Positions 55,754 through 62,335 of a stretch of 64,000 bases of DNA are shown here, piece after piece. Source of the DNA: Sphingorhabdus sp. (GTDB lineage: Bacteria > Pseudomonadota > Alphaproteobacteria > Sphingomonadales > Sphingomonadaceae); assembly GCA_028279555.1 (NCBI GenBank), contig JANQNO010000008.1:62001-126000 (forward strand), given 5' to 3'. Position numbers and translations under genes: made by a program. The notes under the pieces were generated by a model. It was not told where the DNA came from and did not search any database. It worked only from the letters and a program-made list of their open reading frames with translations. Position 1 is the stretch's first letter; each line of letters begins with the position of its first letter.

Positions 55754-57004
55754 CTAAACCAAAATTTCTTTTGCTGCGCCCTGCCCCAGAAAATTCATCG
55801 GGCTGGCGCTCGCTCCATAGGCCCCTGCACAAAAAATCGCGACAAGATCGCCAACCTCTGCGCGCGGCAAAAATACGTTGTTTGACAGCAGATCGAGCGG
55901 CGTACAGAGGCAACCGACGATATCAACAACCTCCTCCGCTTCAGCATCGAATTTGTTGGCAATCGCAATCGGGTAGTTGCGCCGAATGACCGTTCCGAAA
56001 TTGCCGCTCGCTGCCAGTTGGTGATGCAATCCGCCATCGGTGATCAGGAAAGTCTCTCCATGGCTGACCTTTCTGTCGACAATGCGCGTGAGATACACGC
56101 CTGCCTCTCCCACCAGATAGCGGCCAAGCTCGATGCAATATTCGCTTTCCGCTATACTATCCGGTAGCGCCGAAAAAGCCTGTCCCAATGCGCCGCCGAC
56201 AGCGTCCAGATCGAATGGCTCTTCTCCGGGAAAATAGGGAATGCCGAAACCGCCGCCCAAGTTGATCTTGTCCGGTGATGTGCTGGCCTCATCAGACAGC
56301 CTTGCCGCCAGTTCGAGCGTCGCAGCCTGCATTTCGATAATCGCGCCAGTATTCAGCGCCTGCGATCCTGCATAGATATGCAGCCCGCGCCAATCCGCAC
56401 CGCTGGCGATGATCTCCTTGATGAGCGCCGGAACGCGCTCGGCATCGACGCCGAACTGTTTCGCGCCGCCGCCCATCTTCATGCCCGATCCTTTGAGGTC
56501 GAATGATGGATTGACCCGCACCGCCAGTTTCGGCGTCGTGCCTGATCTTTCGCCGATCGCGACGGCCCGGGCAAACTCGCCTTCGCTTTCCAGATTGAGC
56601 GTCACGCCTGCCTCAATCGCGGCTTTCAGCTCGCGGTCACGCTTGCCCGGCCCCGCAAAGCTCATATTCTCAGCGTTGACCCCGGCCGCGAGCGCCAATT
56701 CCATCTCTCCGCCCGAGGCCAAGTCGAAACCATCCACCAGGCCATTCATATATTCCAGCAACGGCGGGAAAGGGTTACCCTTCATCGCATAGTGGATCGC
56801 AAGCTGGTCTGGCATCGCCGCGCGCAGATCGGACACGCGCCGTTTGAGCAGCTCGCGCGAATAAACGAAAAGCGGCGTATCGCCCGCCTCTTCGGCCAAC
56901 TGCGATGCGGTCTTTCCGCCGATGGCTAGCTCGCCATCGATCGCGCCGTAGCCCAACGGAATAGGGCCTGTTGGCTTGGCTTTGGAAGATGAAGCTCCGG
57001 TCAT
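55754..57004 (-). CDS. PLP-dependent decarboxylase, exosortase-A-associated type
   Basis: A 416-residue enzyme of the ornithine/diaminopimelate decarboxylase fold III. The PLP lysine is in AIHYAMKGNPFPPLLEYMNG, the phosphate loop is GGGFGIPYFPGE, the dimer-side motif is ELGRYLVGEAGVYL, and substrate-side CLCTPLDLL and GAYGASASPMNF are present. The match is to the form found in exosortase-A gene sets rather than to LysA itself, because of its neighbours and N-terminal extension. ATG at 57004 with AAAGGGG 7 bases upstream; the TTG at 57025 has no site. It would make an amine from an amino acid for the pathway encoded by the next genes. Confidence 0.85.
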   Translation of the reverse strand: MTGASSSKAKPTGPIPLGYGAIDGELAIGGKTASQLAEEAGDTPLFVYSRELLKRRVSDLRAAMPDQLAIHYAMKGNPFPPLLEYMNGLVDGFDLASGGEMELALAAGVNAENMSFAGPGKRDRELKAAIEAGVTLNLESEGEFARAVAIGERSGTTPKLAVRVNPSFDLKGSGMKMGGGAKQFGVDAERVPALIKEIIASGADWRGLHIYAGSQALNTGAIIEMQAATLELAARLSDEASTSPDKINLGGGFGIPYFPGEEPFDLDAVGGALGQAFSALPDSIAESEYCIELGRYLVGEAGVYLTRIVDRKVSHGETFLITDGGLHHQLAASGNFGTVIRRNYPIAIANKFDAEAEEVVDIVGCLCTPLDLLSNNVFLPRAEVGDLVAIFCAGAYGASASPMNFLGQGAAKEILV

Positions 57005-57054
57005 TGCCGCCCCTTTAGCAGCCAAGCGTTAAAAGGAGAATGACGCATGCAAGG

Positions 57055-57894
57055 TCAATTCTCATCCAAGTCTATCGTCATCGCAATATGCGCGCATTGC
57101 CGGTCTGCCTGAGAAATCCGCATCACAATCATTTCCTCGGTTTGTTGGTCGTCATCCAGTACAATTTCGAATGGGTAATCCAGTTCGATAAATCGATTGA
57201 ATTGCATCTTACCAGCCTCAACAGTGACCGGCTGCCGGTGAAGCGCCGTTGCAAACTGCAGCGCGACATCGGCAAGATGATTGGCATTCACATGATCGCC
57301 CGATCCGCTGTGATAGGGATGGCCCGGCATCAAACCATTTTCCCTGGTGATCAGCGCTTGCACAGACGGTTCATCACGCGCTCGAAGCGGCGAGATCAGA
57401 CTTTCCTTCTGGGTCCCGACGCCCACTGACGCAGCGGCCGCATATTCGAAGTTTGCGGGCTTTGGGGCCTTTGCCAGCTGCCGTTTCGCGGATGCCCGCC
57501 AAGCTTCAAAATCCCGGTTCCGAAATACCACGCCCTTCCCGCTCATCTGAACGACCAGCGCGTCATTCTGATCGTATAAGGTCAATTTATACCCTTCTAC
57601 ATCGCCATCATTTTGGGTTTCGGCTCTGCCATGAGACAAAGGCCCAGAGCCCCTTTCACCGCAATGCCAATCCGACTGGGTCAGCGCCGTCCATTGCGAC
57701 AGATCGAGCGTCCCGCGCGCCTTTGCCGCTTCCACCGATGCCCAATAATTGATCGTCTGTATGACAATCGGGTGATGCGGGTTCAGGGCAAGCCATGGCC
57801 AGATCCCGATGTCATAGGAACAGCTGAAAGTTACCGTGCCGTCCTTGGCGACTTTGTGATCCCGCGTAAACTCGTGCTCTGGGAGCGTCTTCAC
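57055..57894 (-). CDS. Double-hotdog-like protein of unknown function
   Basis: A 279-residue protein that I cannot place in a named family. It reads like two hotdog halves. The first (about residues 15-130) ends GKGVVFRNRDFEAWR. The second (about 195-275) has SGDHVNANHLADVALQFATAL, then MQFNRFIELDYPFEIVLDD, which recalls the AfsA-type repeat (D-H-V ... F-x-R-F-x-E-L-D-x-P). Such domains act on acyl-ACP or acyl-CoA thioesters. The GTG start at 57894 overlaps the ligase stop (GTGA). With an acyl ligase and an ACP gene nearby, an acyl-thioester dehydratase, thioesterase or condensing partner is plausible; this is inference. Confidence 0.6.
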   Translation of the reverse strand: MKTLPEHEFTRDHKVAKDGTVTFSCSYDIGIWPWLALNPHHPIVIQTINYWASVEAAKARGTLDLSQWTALTQSDWHCGERGSGPLSHGRAETQNDGDVEGYKLTLYDQNDALVVQMSGKGVVFRNRDFEAWRASAKRQLAKAPKPANFEYAAAASVGVGTQKESLISPLRARDEPSVQALITRENGLMPGHPYHSGSGDHVNANHLADVALQFATALHRQPVTVEAGKMQFNRFIELDYPFEIVLDDDQQTEEMIVMRISQADRQCAHIAMTIDLDEN

Positions 57895-59444
57895 CGCTGT
57901 TCCAGCTTGGCCGCAAGGCCGTTTCGGTCCAGCTTGCCATTGGCGTTTTTCGGGAACTCGTCGAGCCAGATGATTTCAGCGGGCTGCATGAAATTTGGTA
58001 GTTCGGCCTTCAGATAAGCGCAGAGTTTCTTCTCTGCCGGCACCTGCTCCAGCCGGGCTTCGGCGCGCGCAAACAGGATGATCGCTTCGCCCAGCCTCTC
58101 ATCCTTGCGGCCCAGCGCGCAGGCCTCGGCCACTGCGCCGCTCTCCACCGCTGCTTCTTCTACTTCGGTCGGTGAGACCCGGTTACCGCTAGTCTTTATC
58201 ATCGCATCGTCGCGACCGACAAAATAAAGCAGGCCGTCCGCGCCGCGTTTTACAGTATCACCCGACCATACGGCCAACTCGCCATATTCGCTAAAATCCG
58301 GAGCAGGTTTGAAACGCTCTTTGGTGCGTTCCTCATCCTGCCAATAGCCTTGCGCTACCAGCGGGCCAGCATGCACCAGTTCACCTTCTTCACCCGGCGC
58401 TGCGCGCTCGCCGTCATCATTTACCACCATGATCTCGGCATAGGGAATCGCGCGGCCCATGCTCGTCGGATTGTCATCTATCAACGCCGGATCGAGATAG
58501 GTCGAGCGGAATGCCTCGGTCAGGCCATACATCGCATAAATATCTGTATCCTTGCCGAAAATCCCGCGCAAATCGCGCACAAGCGGCGGCGTTAACGCGC
58601 CGCCCGAATTGGTTAGCCGCCGCATCGCACTCGTCGCCGCTTCCGGCCAGTCCTGCTCGACGAGCTGTACCCAGAGCGGCGGAACAGCGGCCAGCGTTGT
58701 CACGCCATATTTCCCGCAAGCCTTCACCACATCGCGCGGCATCAGATAATCGAGCGGGACCGCACATCCGCCTGCCTGCCATGTCGACAAAAGCTGATTC
58801 TGCCCATAGTCGAATGAGAGCGGGAGAACTGCCAGCGTCACATCATCTGCCGCCAATTCGAGATACTGCGCCACGCTGACGGCACCCAGCGTGAGGTTGG
58901 CATGGCTGAGCATCACGCCCTTGGGCCGTCCCGTGCTACCCGACGTGTAGAGAATTGCCGCGAGTTTGCCGGTATCATAGCCGCCGAGCAAGGGCGGCAG
59001 CTCTTTCGATGACCGACCGGCTTCTTCCGTCAGCCATTTCTCGTCCACAACGACATATTGGTTTGTGTCGAGCGATTTGGAGTCTTCCAGGCTTTGGAGC
59101 TGCCGTATCCTCGATTTCGCCGTCACCAGCAGTTTCGCGCCGCTGTCCGCCAGGATATGCGCAAGCTGGGCCGGCTTGAGCAGCGGGTTTACCGGTACAT
59201 GAACCAGCTCGGCCCGCGCCGCCGCCAAAGGCATCAGGCAGGCAATCTCTGTCTTGGGTAGCCAGGTCGCAACCCTGTCGCCGGGATCAAGCCGCTGCCC
59301 GCGCAAAAGACCCGCCAGCCGGGATACACGGCTATTTAACTCCTCATAGCTAAGGATAGCGCCCTTGATGTTCAGAGCAGCAGAGCCGGACGCACCGCGT
59401 AGAGCGAGATGGTCAAGCGGAAAAGCTGGTAAATCCTTGGACAT
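57891..59444 (-). CDS. AMP-dependent acyl-CoA/acyl-ACP ligase, exosortase-A-associated type
   Basis: A 517-residue adenylate-forming enzyme that activates a carboxylic acid as an acyl-AMP and transfers it to CoA or to a carrier protein. Motifs: the P-loop-like YTSGSTGRPKGVMLSH (near residue 167), MYGLTEAFRSTYLDP, GDTVKRGADGLLYFVGRDD and the C-terminal catalytic lysine in NANGKLDRNG. Its match and its neighbours fit the exosortase-A-associated ligase. ATG at 59444 lies 30 bases from the divergent acyltransferase start. The separate ACP in the other arm is an obvious candidate acceptor. Confidence 0.88.
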   Translation of the reverse strand: MSKDLPAFPLDHLALRGASGSAALNIKGAILSYEELNSRVSRLAGLLRGQRLDPGDRVATWLPKTEIACLMPLAAARAELVHVPVNPLLKPAQLAHILADSGAKLLVTAKSRIRQLQSLEDSKSLDTNQYVVVDEKWLTEEAGRSSKELPPLLGGYDTGKLAAILYTSGSTGRPKGVMLSHANLTLGAVSVAQYLELAADDVTLAVLPLSFDYGQNQLLSTWQAGGCAVPLDYLMPRDVVKACGKYGVTTLAAVPPLWVQLVEQDWPEAATSAMRRLTNSGGALTPPLVRDLRGIFGKDTDIYAMYGLTEAFRSTYLDPALIDDNPTSMGRAIPYAEIMVVNDDGERAAPGEEGELVHAGPLVAQGYWQDEERTKERFKPAPDFSEYGELAVWSGDTVKRGADGLLYFVGRDDAMIKTSGNRVSPTEVEEAAVESGAVAEACALGRKDERLGEAIILFARAEARLEQVPAEKKLCAYLKAELPNFMQPAEIIWLDEFPKNANGKLDRNGLAAKLEQR

Positions 59445-59474
59445 GATGGTTATGTTCTTTTTGGGGCCAATGAG

Positions 59475-60503
59475 ATGAATGCACCAGGACTGATGTCGTT
59501 GAAGGGTGAATATCACGATAATTTCCTCGACGTGCAAGCCTCTGCGCGCGGCAATCTCGATCGCGAGGCACAGCCCTGCCTCTTTGACCGGCTCGACTGG
59601 TTCGATTTGCTCCACCGCATGGCAATGCGAGACCGTAAGCCGGCAATATACCGAGCAAGCGACGGCGCGCGCGATTTGTGGTTTCCGTTGATGGAGGATG
59701 GCCCCGGCAATGCGACCGCCTTCGCCAACTGGTATAATTTTAGCTGGCGGCCCATATTCGCGGGCAATTATGACGAAGTGACCAAGCTCGCCTTGCTCCG
59801 CGAAATATCTGTAAAGGCGTCGGAAAAATTTCGCCGGATCACGCTGTCACCGCTGCCCGGCGAAGATGATTCCGCACGCCTTACCGCAACGGCCTTTGAG
59901 GCGGCCGGATGGGTCGCGCATCTCGAAGAATGCGACGAAAACCACTTTTTGCCCGTCAATGGCCGCAGCTTTGACGAATATTGGAAAGGCCGCCCCGGCC
60001 AGTTGCGCTCGACAGTAAAGCGCAAGGGCAAGAAAGGGATCGTCTCTATCCGCATCGAGAATGAGTTTAGCGAGAGCACCTGGACCGACTATGAAAGCGT
60101 TTACGAAAAAAGCTGGAAGCCGACGGAGGGCAATCCTGAATTTTTGAAAGAGCTTGCCCGGCAGGAAAGCGGCGTTGGCGCGCTGCGCCTTGGCCTGGCC
60201 TATATCGATGGCCGCCCGGCGGCCGCGCAGTTCTGGACCGTGGAAAATGGCGTAGCCCTGATTCACAAACTCGCGCATGACGAGGCATTTCTGTCGGCCT
60301 CGCCCGGCACCCTGCTCTCGGCCGCGCTTTTTCAGCATGCAATCGACATCGACCAGGTCGCCGAAATCGATTTCGGAACAGGCAGCGACAAGTATAAACG
60401 CGACTGGATGGAGGAAATGCGACCGCGCTACAGTCTGGATTTGCTTTGGCCGAACCATCCCGCTAACTGGGCGCGTATCGCGAAATACAAGCTGCTCAAA
60501 TGA
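59475..60503 (+). CDS. FemAB/CelD-like GNAT acyltransferase
   Basis: A 342-residue acyltransferase of the BioF2-like (PF13480-type) GNAT group, which includes the PEP-CTERM-associated FemAB-related proteins. The C-terminal GNAT half contains RLGLAYIDGRPAAAQFWTVENGVALIHKLAHDE (60186-60282) and IDQVAEIDFGTGSDKYKRDWM, the CelD/FemAB hallmark. The N-terminal half is a degenerate second GNAT fold. No signal or membrane helix. It starts 30 bases from the divergent ligase and ends 22 bases before the ACP gene. It could transfer an acyl group from the ACP to an amine or sugar. Confidence 0.82.
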   Translation: MNAPGLMSLKGEYHDNFLDVQASARGNLDREAQPCLFDRLDWFDLLHRMAMRDRKPAIYRASDGARDLWFPLMEDGPGNATAFANWYNFSWRPIFAGNYDEVTKLALLREISVKASEKFRRITLSPLPGEDDSARLTATAFEAAGWVAHLEECDENHFLPVNGRSFDEYWKGRPGQLRSTVKRKGKKGIVSIRIENEFSESTWTDYESVYEKSWKPTEGNPEFLKELARQESGVGALRLGLAYIDGRPAAAQFWTVENGVALIHKLAHDEAFLSASPGTLLSAALFQHAIDIDQVAEIDFGTGSDKYKRDWMEEMRPRYSLDLLWPNHPANWARIAKYKLLK

Positions 60504-60525
60504 AGCAGCGTTGGGACTAGGGAGC

Positions 60526-60807
60526 ATGTCCGGGGTGGCGGAAATATCGCAAGTGGAAGACAGCGTGCGCGAATTGCTTGTAGACGTCTTGGGCGTCGAT
60601 GCCGAGCAGGCCGCAGAGATGGAAAGCGATACACCTTTATTCGGTGCATTGCCCGAACTTGATTCCATGGCGGTGGCAGGTTTGCTTACCGAAATGGAAG
60701 ACCGGCTTGAAATCATGATCGACGATGAGGATGTCGATGGCGAGCTTTTCGAGACCTTTGGCAGCCTGGTGGAGTTTACCGCCGGAAAGCTCGAAGAAGG
60801 AGCCTGA
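60526..60807 (+). CDS. Acyl carrier protein
   Basis: A 93-residue acidic carrier with the 4'-phosphopantetheine serine in ELDSMAV (near residue 46), within an otherwise typical four-helix ACP: VRELLVDVLGV, DTPLFGALPELDS and LEIMIDDEDVDGELFETFGSL. It is not the primary fatty-acid ACP, which normally lies with fabD/fabG and ends with a different helix. GGGAG lies just before the ATG. Located between the acyltransferase and the hydrolase pair, it should carry the intermediate of this locus after loading by the divergent ligase. Confidence 0.92.
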   Translation: MSGVAEISQVEDSVRELLVDVLGVDAEQAAEMESDTPLFGALPELDSMAVAGLLTEMEDRLEIMIDDEDVDGELFETFGSLVEFTAGKLEEGA

Positions 60808-60818
60808 GGGCAGCCCGA

Positions 60819-61493
60819 ATGCGCCATCTGACCTACAGCTGGGCCGATCGCGACGAACAATTGCTCACATGCGGCCCGGATGGCGCGGAACAGCGCATCT
60901 TGTTTGTCCCGCCGCTCTTCGATGAAATGAACAGAGTGCGCCGCACACTTGTCGAGGCAATGCGCATACTGGGCGATACCGGAATTTCAAGCACGCTTCC
61001 CGATTTGCCCGGATGCAATGAAAGCCAGGCAAAGCTGGAAGATCAAAGTCTGGAGGATTGGCGCGATGCGATCACGGCGGCTGCAAAAGCCATTGACGCG
61101 ACGCAGACATTCTCAGTCAGGGGCGGTGCCCTGATCGATGATGGTCCTGCCCTTCCTACGATACGGCTATCGCCTGCGAAGGGCAAAAGCCTGCTGAACA
61201 TGCTTGTCCGCACACGAATAGTTGGCGACAAGGAAGCGGGCGTCACGACCACCGCTGAAGCGCTGCGCACCGAAGCCGAAAATGGGTCTGTGGAATTGGC
61301 AGGACACAATATCAGTGCGCTGATGTGGAATGGGCTGGAGACAGCCGAAATTCCAGATGGTAGTGACGCTGCGCTACTCAAGCCCGCCGATGTCGATGGC
61401 AGTGCTTTATGGCTGCGCGCCGAGCCGCAGCATGATCCTGCCATGGCGGCGGGGCTTGCCGAAATGCTCGCGAAGGGGAGTGCGGCAAGTTGA
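60819..61493 (+). CDS. Exosortase-A-associated hydrolase 2-like protein
   Basis: A 224-residue alpha/beta-hydrolase-fold protein. The start LFVPPLFDEMNRVRRTLVEA is the hallmark of exosortase-A-associated hydrolase 2. At the position of the nucleophile elbow, where active members of the superfamily have G-x-S-x-G, this protein reads FSVRGGALID (near residues 98-107), with Arg101 where the Ser would be. It is probably not a classical serine hydrolase. The short length also suggests loss of the cap. Its TGA overlaps the next gene by TTGA. Confidence 0.8.
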   Translation: MRHLTYSWADRDEQLLTCGPDGAEQRILFVPPLFDEMNRVRRTLVEAMRILGDTGISSTLPDLPGCNESQAKLEDQSLEDWRDAITAAAKAIDATQTFSVRGGALIDDGPALPTIRLSPAKGKSLLNMLVRTRIVGDKEAGVTTTAEALRTEAENGSVELAGHNISALMWNGLETAEIPDGSDAALLKPADVDGSALWLRAEPQHDPAMAAGLAEMLAKGSAAS

Positions 61494-62335
61494 GGGAGCA
61501 CTTCACTTTCGACGTCGACGGGGCGAGTTGCGCAGGAACGCTTGATAAAGCAGGCGGAAGCACAGGACTGCTGATCGTGAGCGGCGGCAATGAGATTCGC
61601 AGCGGCGCGCATGGCGGGCAGGCCGCATTGGCCGGGAAAATCGCCGAGGCGGGATTTCCGGTCTTTCGCTATGACCGCCGCGGCATCGGCGACAGCGAAG
61701 GAGACAATATCGGCTTTGAAGAAAGCGCATCGGATATTGCGGCGGCGCTAGGCGCTTTCAGAAAGGCTGCTTCGCACATCGAGCGGGTTGTCGCTTTTGG
61801 CAATTGCGATGCCGCGACGGCGCTTGCCTGTTTTCATCATGAAATGCCTATCGACGCAATGCTACTTGCCAATCCATGGGTGATCGAAACTGACAGCTCG
61901 GATGCTGGCGATGAGGCATCCACTCAGCCCAGCGCAGCCTCCATCCGGGCACGCTATTGGGCTCGGATCAAAAATCCGAGCAGTATCATCGATCTGCTGA
62001 CCGGCAAGATCGATTTGCGAAAACTGTTGGGCGGGCTTGCAAAAGCCTCATTAAAGGAGGCCCCGAGCGAACTGGCTGAAAAACTTGCCTCAGCGCTAGA
62101 TGGCAGCAGGACACCGACCCGAATTCTGCTTGCCAAGCGCGATACCACGGCGCTCGCCTTCTACGGCGCCTGGAAAAGCAAGATATTTGGTCCGGCACGG
62201 CAACGCGACAATCTGAAAGTGGAAATGATCGATAGCGCGGCGCACAGCTTTGCAAGCACCGATGAAAAGGCATGGCTGTATGAGCAGATTATGTCGGTCT
62301 TGTTGGCGGATGAAGGTCTCACAAATGAAACGTGA
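61490..62335 (+). CDS. Exosortase-A-associated hydrolase 1
   Basis: A 281-residue alpha/beta hydrolase with the family start LLIVSGGNEIRSGAHGGQAALAG and FRYDRRGIGDSEGD. The nucleophile elbow is GNCDAA with Cys106 in place of Ser, as in the known group (G-x-C-D-G-A), pointing to a thioester or ester hydrolase with a cysteine nucleophile. The start is TTG at 61490 overlapping the upstream stop. It ends the rightward arm; about 220 non-coding bases follow before the M28 gene. Confidence 0.85.
   Translation: MREHFTFDVDGASCAGTLDKAGGSTGLLIVSGGNEIRSGAHGGQAALAGKIAEAGFPVFRYDRRGIGDSEGDNIGFEESASDIAAALGAFRKAASHIERVVAFGNCDAATALACFHHEMPIDAMLLANPWVIETDSSDAGDEASTQPSAASIRARYWARIKNPSSIIDLLTGKIDLRKLLGGLAKASLKEAPSELAEKLASALDGSRTPTRILLAKRDTTALAFYGAWKSKIFGPARQRDNLKVEMIDSAAHSFASTDEKAWLYEQIMSVLLADEGLTNET

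Follow-up and report, generated by a model that had tools for sequence, protein, structure and literature searches.

The stretch analyzed here (the window: 64,000 nucleotides, positions 62001-126000 of contig C6, JANQNO010000008.1, in a 2.75 Mb Sphingorhabdus genome that is 99.9% complete) contains a seven-gene cluster encoding a pyridoxal phosphate (PLP)-dependent decarboxylase, a double-hotdog protein, an adenosine monophosphate (AMP)-forming ligase, a Fem-like transferase, an acyl carrier protein (ACP), and two alpha/beta-hydrolase-type proteins. We conclude that this cluster is probably the amino-acyl carrier module of an exosortase A (XrtA)/PEP-CTERM exopolysaccharide locus; in this lineage it has become separated from the rest of that locus, with the hotdog gene added. 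Its placement in the exosortase A locus is near certain, and sequence comparisons make formation of an omega-aminoacyl-ACP the likely reaction class.

A split exosortase A locus

The initial annotation found no exosortase or PEP-CTERM substrate within these 64 kb and rated the cluster as the best candidate in the window for an undescribed system. The absence is real for the window, as it held no match to either and all PF09721 and PF07589 matches of the genome lie outside it. The implied exosortase-free locus did not survive a search of the whole genome. The sole PF09721 match, at C6:7236-7988, shares the contig with the cluster at a distance of ~110 kb; it is XrtA (TIGR03109, 345.4 bits) and is adjoined by nine further eps-locus genes. 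The locus reads amidotransferase, XrtA, glycosyltransferase stp1, FemAB, deacetylase, ATPase, an unmatched protein, tyrosine kinase, chain-length determinant, and export protein. The tyrosine kinase scored 210 bits, under the cut-off of 230.65, and the unmatched protein had no family match at E 1e-10; from its place in the locus we would guess a beta-barrel. A genome-wide search for PEP-CTERM tails returned three PF07589 matches, all on other contigs (C5, C7, and C1), to proteins with VPAP/IPAP tails, a hydrophobic stretch, and a basic end. A 429-aa PEP-CTERM-like protein at C1:189882 (locus L006) consists mostly of Ser/Gly/Thr repeats and, from its sequence, is a likely XrtA substrate.

We surveyed 196 Sphingomonadales genomes, this one included, and counted a gene as present when it scored over the family cut-off. 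The decarboxylase occurred in 130 genomes and XrtA in 127, with both in 100 and neither in 39. The two markers shared a contig in 92 of the 100 genomes and were on different contigs in eight. In 89 of the 100 the decarboxylase lay ≤30 kb from xrtA (median 9.6 kb), and in 88 of these close pairs both genes were on the same strand. Only three genomes had the markers far apart on one contig: the genome under study, G065, and G180. The usual order was hyd1-hyd2-acp-gnat, with lig-dCO2-export-ChnLen-TyrK-barrel-ATPase-deac-femAB-GT-xrtA-amidoT running divergently. With XrtA and the eps genes on the same contig here and the markers within 30 kb in 89/100 genomes, the cluster represents a known locus that has been split and not a new exosortase-free system.

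We compared 80 named loci, of which 63 with full flanks were counted for eps genes and 17 with cut flanks were left out of those counts. At least three eps genes adjoined the cluster in 50 of the 63, one or two in three, and none in ten. In the locus view, five of those ten held the transferase and both hydrolases, as in the window, and five held only the core genes described below. The locus of one Sphingorhabdus strain (L173) displayed the core alone. In L151 (one flank cut) and L155, the cluster adjoins bactofilin-M23-proA as it does in the window, without the hotdog gene. The gap between decarboxylase and ligase was ≤150 bp in 114 of the 118 genomes with both on one contig; here it is 965 bp and is occupied by the hotdog gene.

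Decarboxylase

Among solved structures, BtrK (7ru7/2j66), the L-glutamyl-[BtrI ACP] decarboxylase, came closest to the decarboxylase at 235.7 bits, 91 bits ahead of the best diaminopimelate (DAP) decarboxylase structure (144.5 bits). The T. maritima DAP decarboxylase binds the distal carboxylate through Arg249 and Arg285 and the distal amino group through Glu315; the single substitution E315T removed most of its DAP activity (PMC8277567). We mapped these positions through the EPGR, RP, and CE motifs of LysA and their spacing, since the T. maritima sequence itself is not in the alignment. The Glu315 position was Thr in all 39 family members and in BtrK, and Glu in 16/16 LysA sequences. The Arg285 position was Ala in 38 members and Ser in one, Ala in BtrK, and Arg in 16/16 LysA. 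The Arg249 position was conserved, the other two distal contacts of DAP being replaced, and a CTP loop stands where DAP decarboxylases have CE[ST]. Chain 6knh, whose printed sequence is close to 6knk, also has Thr at the Glu315 position; 6knk is SbnH, which decarboxylates a citryl-linked amino acid (PMC7857480). Twenty-eight BtrK residues were fixed in the decarboxylase family but rare in LysA, and nine showed the reverse. We propose from these comparisons that the enzyme acts on an ACP-bound amino acid. It was first thought to supply a free amine, which is probably incorrect given that its nearest solved relative works on a carrier-bound substrate.

The alternative that the enzyme is a second LysA-like or ornithine decarboxylase giving free amine or lysine, with the ligase and ACP making a separate acyl group, would fit its family likeness to LysA (241 bits, under the cut-off) and the situation in genus g12, where 9/14 genomes lacked LysA over the cut-off and seven of those nine retained the BtrK-like decarboxylase. 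However, the distal Glu and Arg of LysA are missing from the enzyme and TIGR01048 fell below its cut-off, the contact replacements extend to 39/39 family members, and the gene sits directly beside the ligase in nearly all genomes (the 114/118 above). The genome under study also has a LysA of its own at C7:22665. LysA can evidently be lost independently of the BtrK-like enzyme, as two g12 genomes, G153 and G195, had neither of them above its cut-off. A role as LysA substitute is disfavored by these two genomes and by the replaced DAP contacts, and we regard a free-amine decarboxylase as improbable.

Ligase and carrier protein

The top-scoring solved relatives of the ligase were adenylation domains of non-ribosomal peptide synthetases (NRPSs), with 3wvn at 166.3 bits. 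We take 3wvn to be VinN; its annotation there reads non-ribosomal peptide synthetase. The score of linear gramicidin synthetase sums two domains, the best single one reaching 159.6 bits. Asp213, Arg314, and Lys505 of the ligase were invariant in 39/39 sequences, and Asp213 lines up with the FD Asp of the NRPS domains, the residue that binds the amino group there. In VinN, Asp230 binds the alpha-amino group and Ser299/Arg331 the alpha-carboxylate of beta-methylaspartate (PMC7756342). The 101 residues between Asp213 and Arg314 equal the Asp230/Arg331 distance in VinN, an agreement of spacing only, without residue alignment. The ACP, whose nearest solved structure was 2lki, kept the serine of its PE[LF]DS motif in 37/37 aligned ACPs.

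Loading of a non-amino acid (fatty or aromatic) onto the ACP, giving an acyl amide or lipid signal, was also considered. The ligase does match acyl-CoA ligase models and structures as well, and the hotdog gene has an acyl-thioesterase fold. However, the best-scoring solved relatives are amino-acid adenylation enzymes, the invariant Asp213 falls on the FD Asp, and the hotdog gene is outside the conserved set, and such a substrate is hardly likely.

Core genes without exosortase

Thirty of the 130 genomes with the decarboxylase had no XrtA over the cut-off; PF09721 matched nothing at E 0.001 in 23 of these, and the other seven had another exosortase type. We read the loci of 29 of them, leaving out G023 (an 81% complete assembly). 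Ligase and decarboxylase were present in all 29 and the ACP in 28, while the transferase and both hydrolases were found in just one (G117). An ATPase match occurred in 8/29 loci, that of G157 being a fragment; one locus (G030) also had a deacetylase, and none had xrtA. In 16/29 loci, truA and the decarboxylase were no more than about 300 bp apart. In the genome under study and in G180, truA and recR border the xrtA locus on its amidotransferase side; this proximity is what a deletion of everything between would leave. In G117 (locus L045, 11555-12496), pieces of the export protein and amidotransferase lie in one 313-aa open frame, which by its sequence resembles the scar left by a deletion of eps/xrtA genes.

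Whole-genome searches of 44 genomes, comprising these 30 and 14 XrtA-positive controls hand-picked from the 100 genomes with both markers (the genome under study included), found hydrolase 1 in 14/14 positive and 2/30 negative genomes (G117 and G023), and the transferase in 13/14 (not G056) and 1/30. On a tree of the decarboxylases from 59 genomes, 30 with XrtA and 29 lacking it, the XrtA label required 12 changes, eight of them forced by well-supported branches; leaving out the seven genomes with another exosortase, nine changes were needed. A gene tree of this kind is compatible with transfer, and the changes may include regain. Since the core was kept in XrtA-negative loci through repeated changes of the label, gene content indicates that the ACP, ligase, and decarboxylase are an exosortase-independent core, and that the transferase and hydrolase 1 mostly track XrtA. 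The idea in the initial annotation that the set can exist apart from exosortase is supported in a form that had not been foreseen: 30 genomes without XrtA keep the decarboxylase, with ligase in 29/29 loci and ACP in 28/29.

We tested selection in 21 XrtA-negative genomes (g12, g11, g24, and five of g7; G168, G190, and G192 keep another exosortase). None of the 21 had premature stops in the core genes. Closest-pair ratios of nonsynonymous to synonymous substitution (dN/dS) were about 0.04-0.19 for the core, near those of neighboring truA/recR, whereas deeper pairs went higher, reaching about 0.6 in g12 among the four closest pairs listed for each gene there. That the core in these genomes is a decaying, functionless remnant of a deleted eps locus is very unlikely: the eps leftovers (ATPase matches in 8/29 loci, the G030 deacetylase, and the G117 junction), a fast-evolving ATPase in genus g7, and the deeper g12 pairs near 0.6 would fit it, but the intact frames, closest-pair dN/dS, the carrier serine kept in 37/37 ACPs, and the joint presence of ligase and decarboxylase in 29/29 loci despite at least eight well-supported label changes all disfavor it.

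Distribution beyond Sphingomonadales

Among 349 Pseudomonadota genomes, 25 had the decarboxylase over the cut-off and 23 of these had XrtA, the exceptions being G030 and G300; 5/28 XrtA genomes in this set had no decarboxylase over the cut-off. By these counts, decoupling is mainly a trait of Sphingomonadales. Three further genomes (G209, G217, and G340) carried a decarboxylase scoring just under the cut-off, and a search for XrtA at E 1e-55 found none in them. In G300 (L139), an alphaproteobacterium without XrtA, ligase, decarboxylase, and ACP stand amid glycosyltransferases, an acetyltransferase, and a DegT-like aminotransferase (judged by eye), glycan-like neighbors that fit a glycan acceptor. 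Five XrtA-bearing loci from outside the order (L140, L141, L143, L147, and L149) held the ligase, decarboxylase, ACP, and both hydrolases together, and L142 and L148 held only part of the set.

Transferase and hydrolases

The predicted transferase model (predicted local distance difference test, pLDDT, 90.6) has a tandem GNAT fold. Foldseek matched it, at 10-15% identity, to the aminoacyl transferases FemX, Sba18/Sbb17, and MprF/PGS, with a TM-score of about 0.6 to FemX. The neighboring ACP suggests a donor other than aminoacyl-tRNA.

Hydrolase 1 has Cys106 (in GxCD), Asp218, and His252 invariant in 11/11 aligned rows, making Cys the probable nucleophile. In hydrolase 2, Arg101 occupies the nucleophile place and was invariant in 11/11 rows (this protein and 10 relatives), with GxRxG in distant relatives; the replacement suggests that the protein is probably not a hydrolase but a non-catalytic partner.

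Gene set and the double-hotdog gene

All seven genes were present in two divergent arms, as first described, with 27 bases separating the ligase and transferase frames (Table 1). The initial annotation also listed four matches to families named for exosortase A. Three scored over their curated cut-offs: the decarboxylase (TIGR03099, 587.7 bits), ligase (TIGR03098, 638.3 bits), and hydrolase 1 (TIGR03100, 212.5 bits). The fourth, hydrolase 2, reached only 49.0 bits against TIGR03101, under the cut-off of 202.75, and its orthology comes from position and alignment. NCBIfam gives the model type of the exosortase-A-associated ligase, decarboxylase, and hydrolase families as 'hypothetical equivalog'. 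For the ACP, whose start in the open reading frame list is 60277, a 93-aa frame at 60526-60807 is the best reading of the sequence.

Table 1 Genes of the cluster, in window coordinates.
Gene product	Position	Strand	Family match and features
BtrK-like PLP decarboxylase (dCO2ase_PEP1)	55754..57025	-	TIGR03099; PLP Lys82, loop C374-T375-P376; core gene
Double-hotdog protein	57055..57894	-	perhaps thioesterase-like; between decarboxylase and ligase; accessory (AlphaFold2/Foldseek)
AMP-forming ligase (ligase_PEP_1)	57891..59447	-	TIGR03098; proposed amino-acid:ACP ligase; core gene
Acetyltransf_6/Fem-like aminoacyl transferase	59475..60503	+	PF13480 (profile search); mostly tracks XrtA
Stand-alone acyl carrier protein	60526..60807	+	PF00550 (profile search); phosphopantetheine Ser in ALPELDS; core gene
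Hydrolase 2-like alpha/beta protein	60819..61493	+	TIGR03101 below cut-off; Arg replaces nucleophile
Hydrolase 1, alpha/beta-hydrolase	61490..62335	+	TIGR03100; Cys106, Asp218, His252 invariant; mostly tracks XrtA

The hotdog protein had no Pfam match at E 0.001. Its AlphaFold2 model (pLDDT 86) resembled the FatA/TesB double hotdogs in Foldseek, and it may be a thioesterase-like enzyme. The gene occurred in 12/196 genomes, in the other 11 of them away from the decarboxylase locus, and in 0/80 named loci of relatives (17 of them with cut flanks). Although initially counted as part of the set, it is in the locus only here; we rejected it as a conserved pathway member, and its distribution marks it as a local insertion.

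Proposed pathway

In the pathway that we propose, the ligase would adenylate a dicarboxylic amino acid, aspartate more likely and glutamate possible, and load its side-chain carboxyl onto the ACP. The BtrK-like PLP enzyme would then strip the alpha-carboxyl on the carrier to give beta-alanyl- or 4-aminobutyryl-ACP, and the Fem-like transferase would pass the omega-aminoacyl group on to an acceptor in the XrtA/eps pathway that is either a glycan or lipid-linked. Hydrolase 1, as a Cys-type enzyme, could serve in proofreading or as a second transfer enzyme. In genomes without XrtA the same carrier product would have to go to another acceptor. The self-consistent carrier-protein pathway of the initial annotation stands, as one of the exosortase-A-associated kind and not as a new exosortase-free system.

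Several results weigh against parts of this interpretation. Within the order, 27/127 XrtA-positive genomes had no decarboxylase over the cut-off. Twenty-five of the 27 belong to family f5, mostly genus g37, and mostly with lower-scoring XrtA; G088 and G107 have sub-cut-off decarboxylase matches. BtrK sits on a long branch whose place relative to the decarboxylase family is not settled, and the evidence consequently favors BtrK-like working more than descent from BtrK. By constant spacing, VinN Ser299 would fall on Gly282 of the ligase, next to Ser281; a residue alignment to VinN was sought and none obtained, and a ligase piece searched at E 1e-10 returned no match. Of ten XrtA-positive loci examined likewise to the XrtA-negative ones, G005 and G047 gave no transferase hit, and G007 gave none for the ACP, hydrolase 1, or hydrolase 2. 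Together with G056, these gaps indicate that the transferase, ACP, and hydrolases are not obligatory beside XrtA. Outside the order, 9/10 genomes with the decarboxylase over the cut-off have XrtA, and decoupling is rare there.

In Gram-positive bacteria, sortases join proteins to an amine that Fem transferases have put in place, and we know of no acceptor to which exosortase joins its proteins. A speculative extension, which we consider rather unlikely as a whole, is that the module makes a primary-amine anchor for exosortase A: the Fem-like transferase would put the omega-aminoacyl group on a glycan or lipid, exosortase would draw on that amine in releasing PEP-CTERM proteins onto the surface, and the carrier core would have been retained, despite repeated XrtA losses, for a second role independent of exosortase.

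The exosortase-A-associated ligase, decarboxylase, and hydrolases have so far been named by association only, and the 'exosortase A system-associated' names mislead where a genome has the core but no exosortase. A term search of Haft 2006 (PMC1569441) gave no occurrence of decarboxylase, ligase, acyl carrier, or hydrolase. Among the open-licence literature matches listed, none assigned a product to the exosortase-linked ligase, decarboxylase, and ACP, though print sources may do so. The omega-aminoacyl-ACP chemistry and the division between a core and an exosortase-following delivery part make the questions of product and anchor testable.

Comparison with known systems

The cluster shares its families (TIGR03098/03099/03100/03101), gene order, and divergent layout with exosortase A loci, and the genome has XrtA and the eps locus. 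It differs from them in the 110 kb split, the inserted hotdog gene, and the sub-cut-off hydrolase 2, and the core of the module occurs without exosortase in relatives.

The cluster resembles the butirosin BtrI/BtrK system in its decarboxylase, for which BtrK is the closest solved structure, in having a small ACP gene close by, and in the aminoacyl transfer proposed. Unlike butirosin, the adenylating ligase here is AMP-forming and the genes belong to a polysaccharide/protein-sorting locus and not to an antibiotic cluster; BtrJ of butirosin has another fold than the AMP-forming ligase.

An AMP-forming amino-acid ligase and a stand-alone ACP are shared with vicenistatin (VinN/VinL/VinO), fluvirucin (FlvN), and bolagladin (BolO/BolC/BolN). 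The vicenistatin carrier VinL receives methylaspartate from VinN and holds it while VinO decarboxylates it (PMC11284099); BolO/BolC/BolN are proposed to do likewise with aspartate, and BolN resembles BtrK (PMC7756342). A PLP decarboxylase acting on an ACP-bound dicarboxylic amino acid is thus shown for vicenistatin and proposed for bolagladin and here. Unlike these three systems, the cluster has no adjoining polyketide or peptide synthase and has a Fem-like transferase and alpha/beta hydrolases instead, which 28/29 XrtA-negative loci, unlike the locus in the window, also lack.

The transferase model has the same fold as FemX/FemA, Sba18/Sbb17, and MprF/PGS. According to their descriptions, FemX and Sba18/Sbb17 work with aminoacyl-tRNA or peptidyl-RNA, whereas the donor proposed here is an aminoacyl-ACP.

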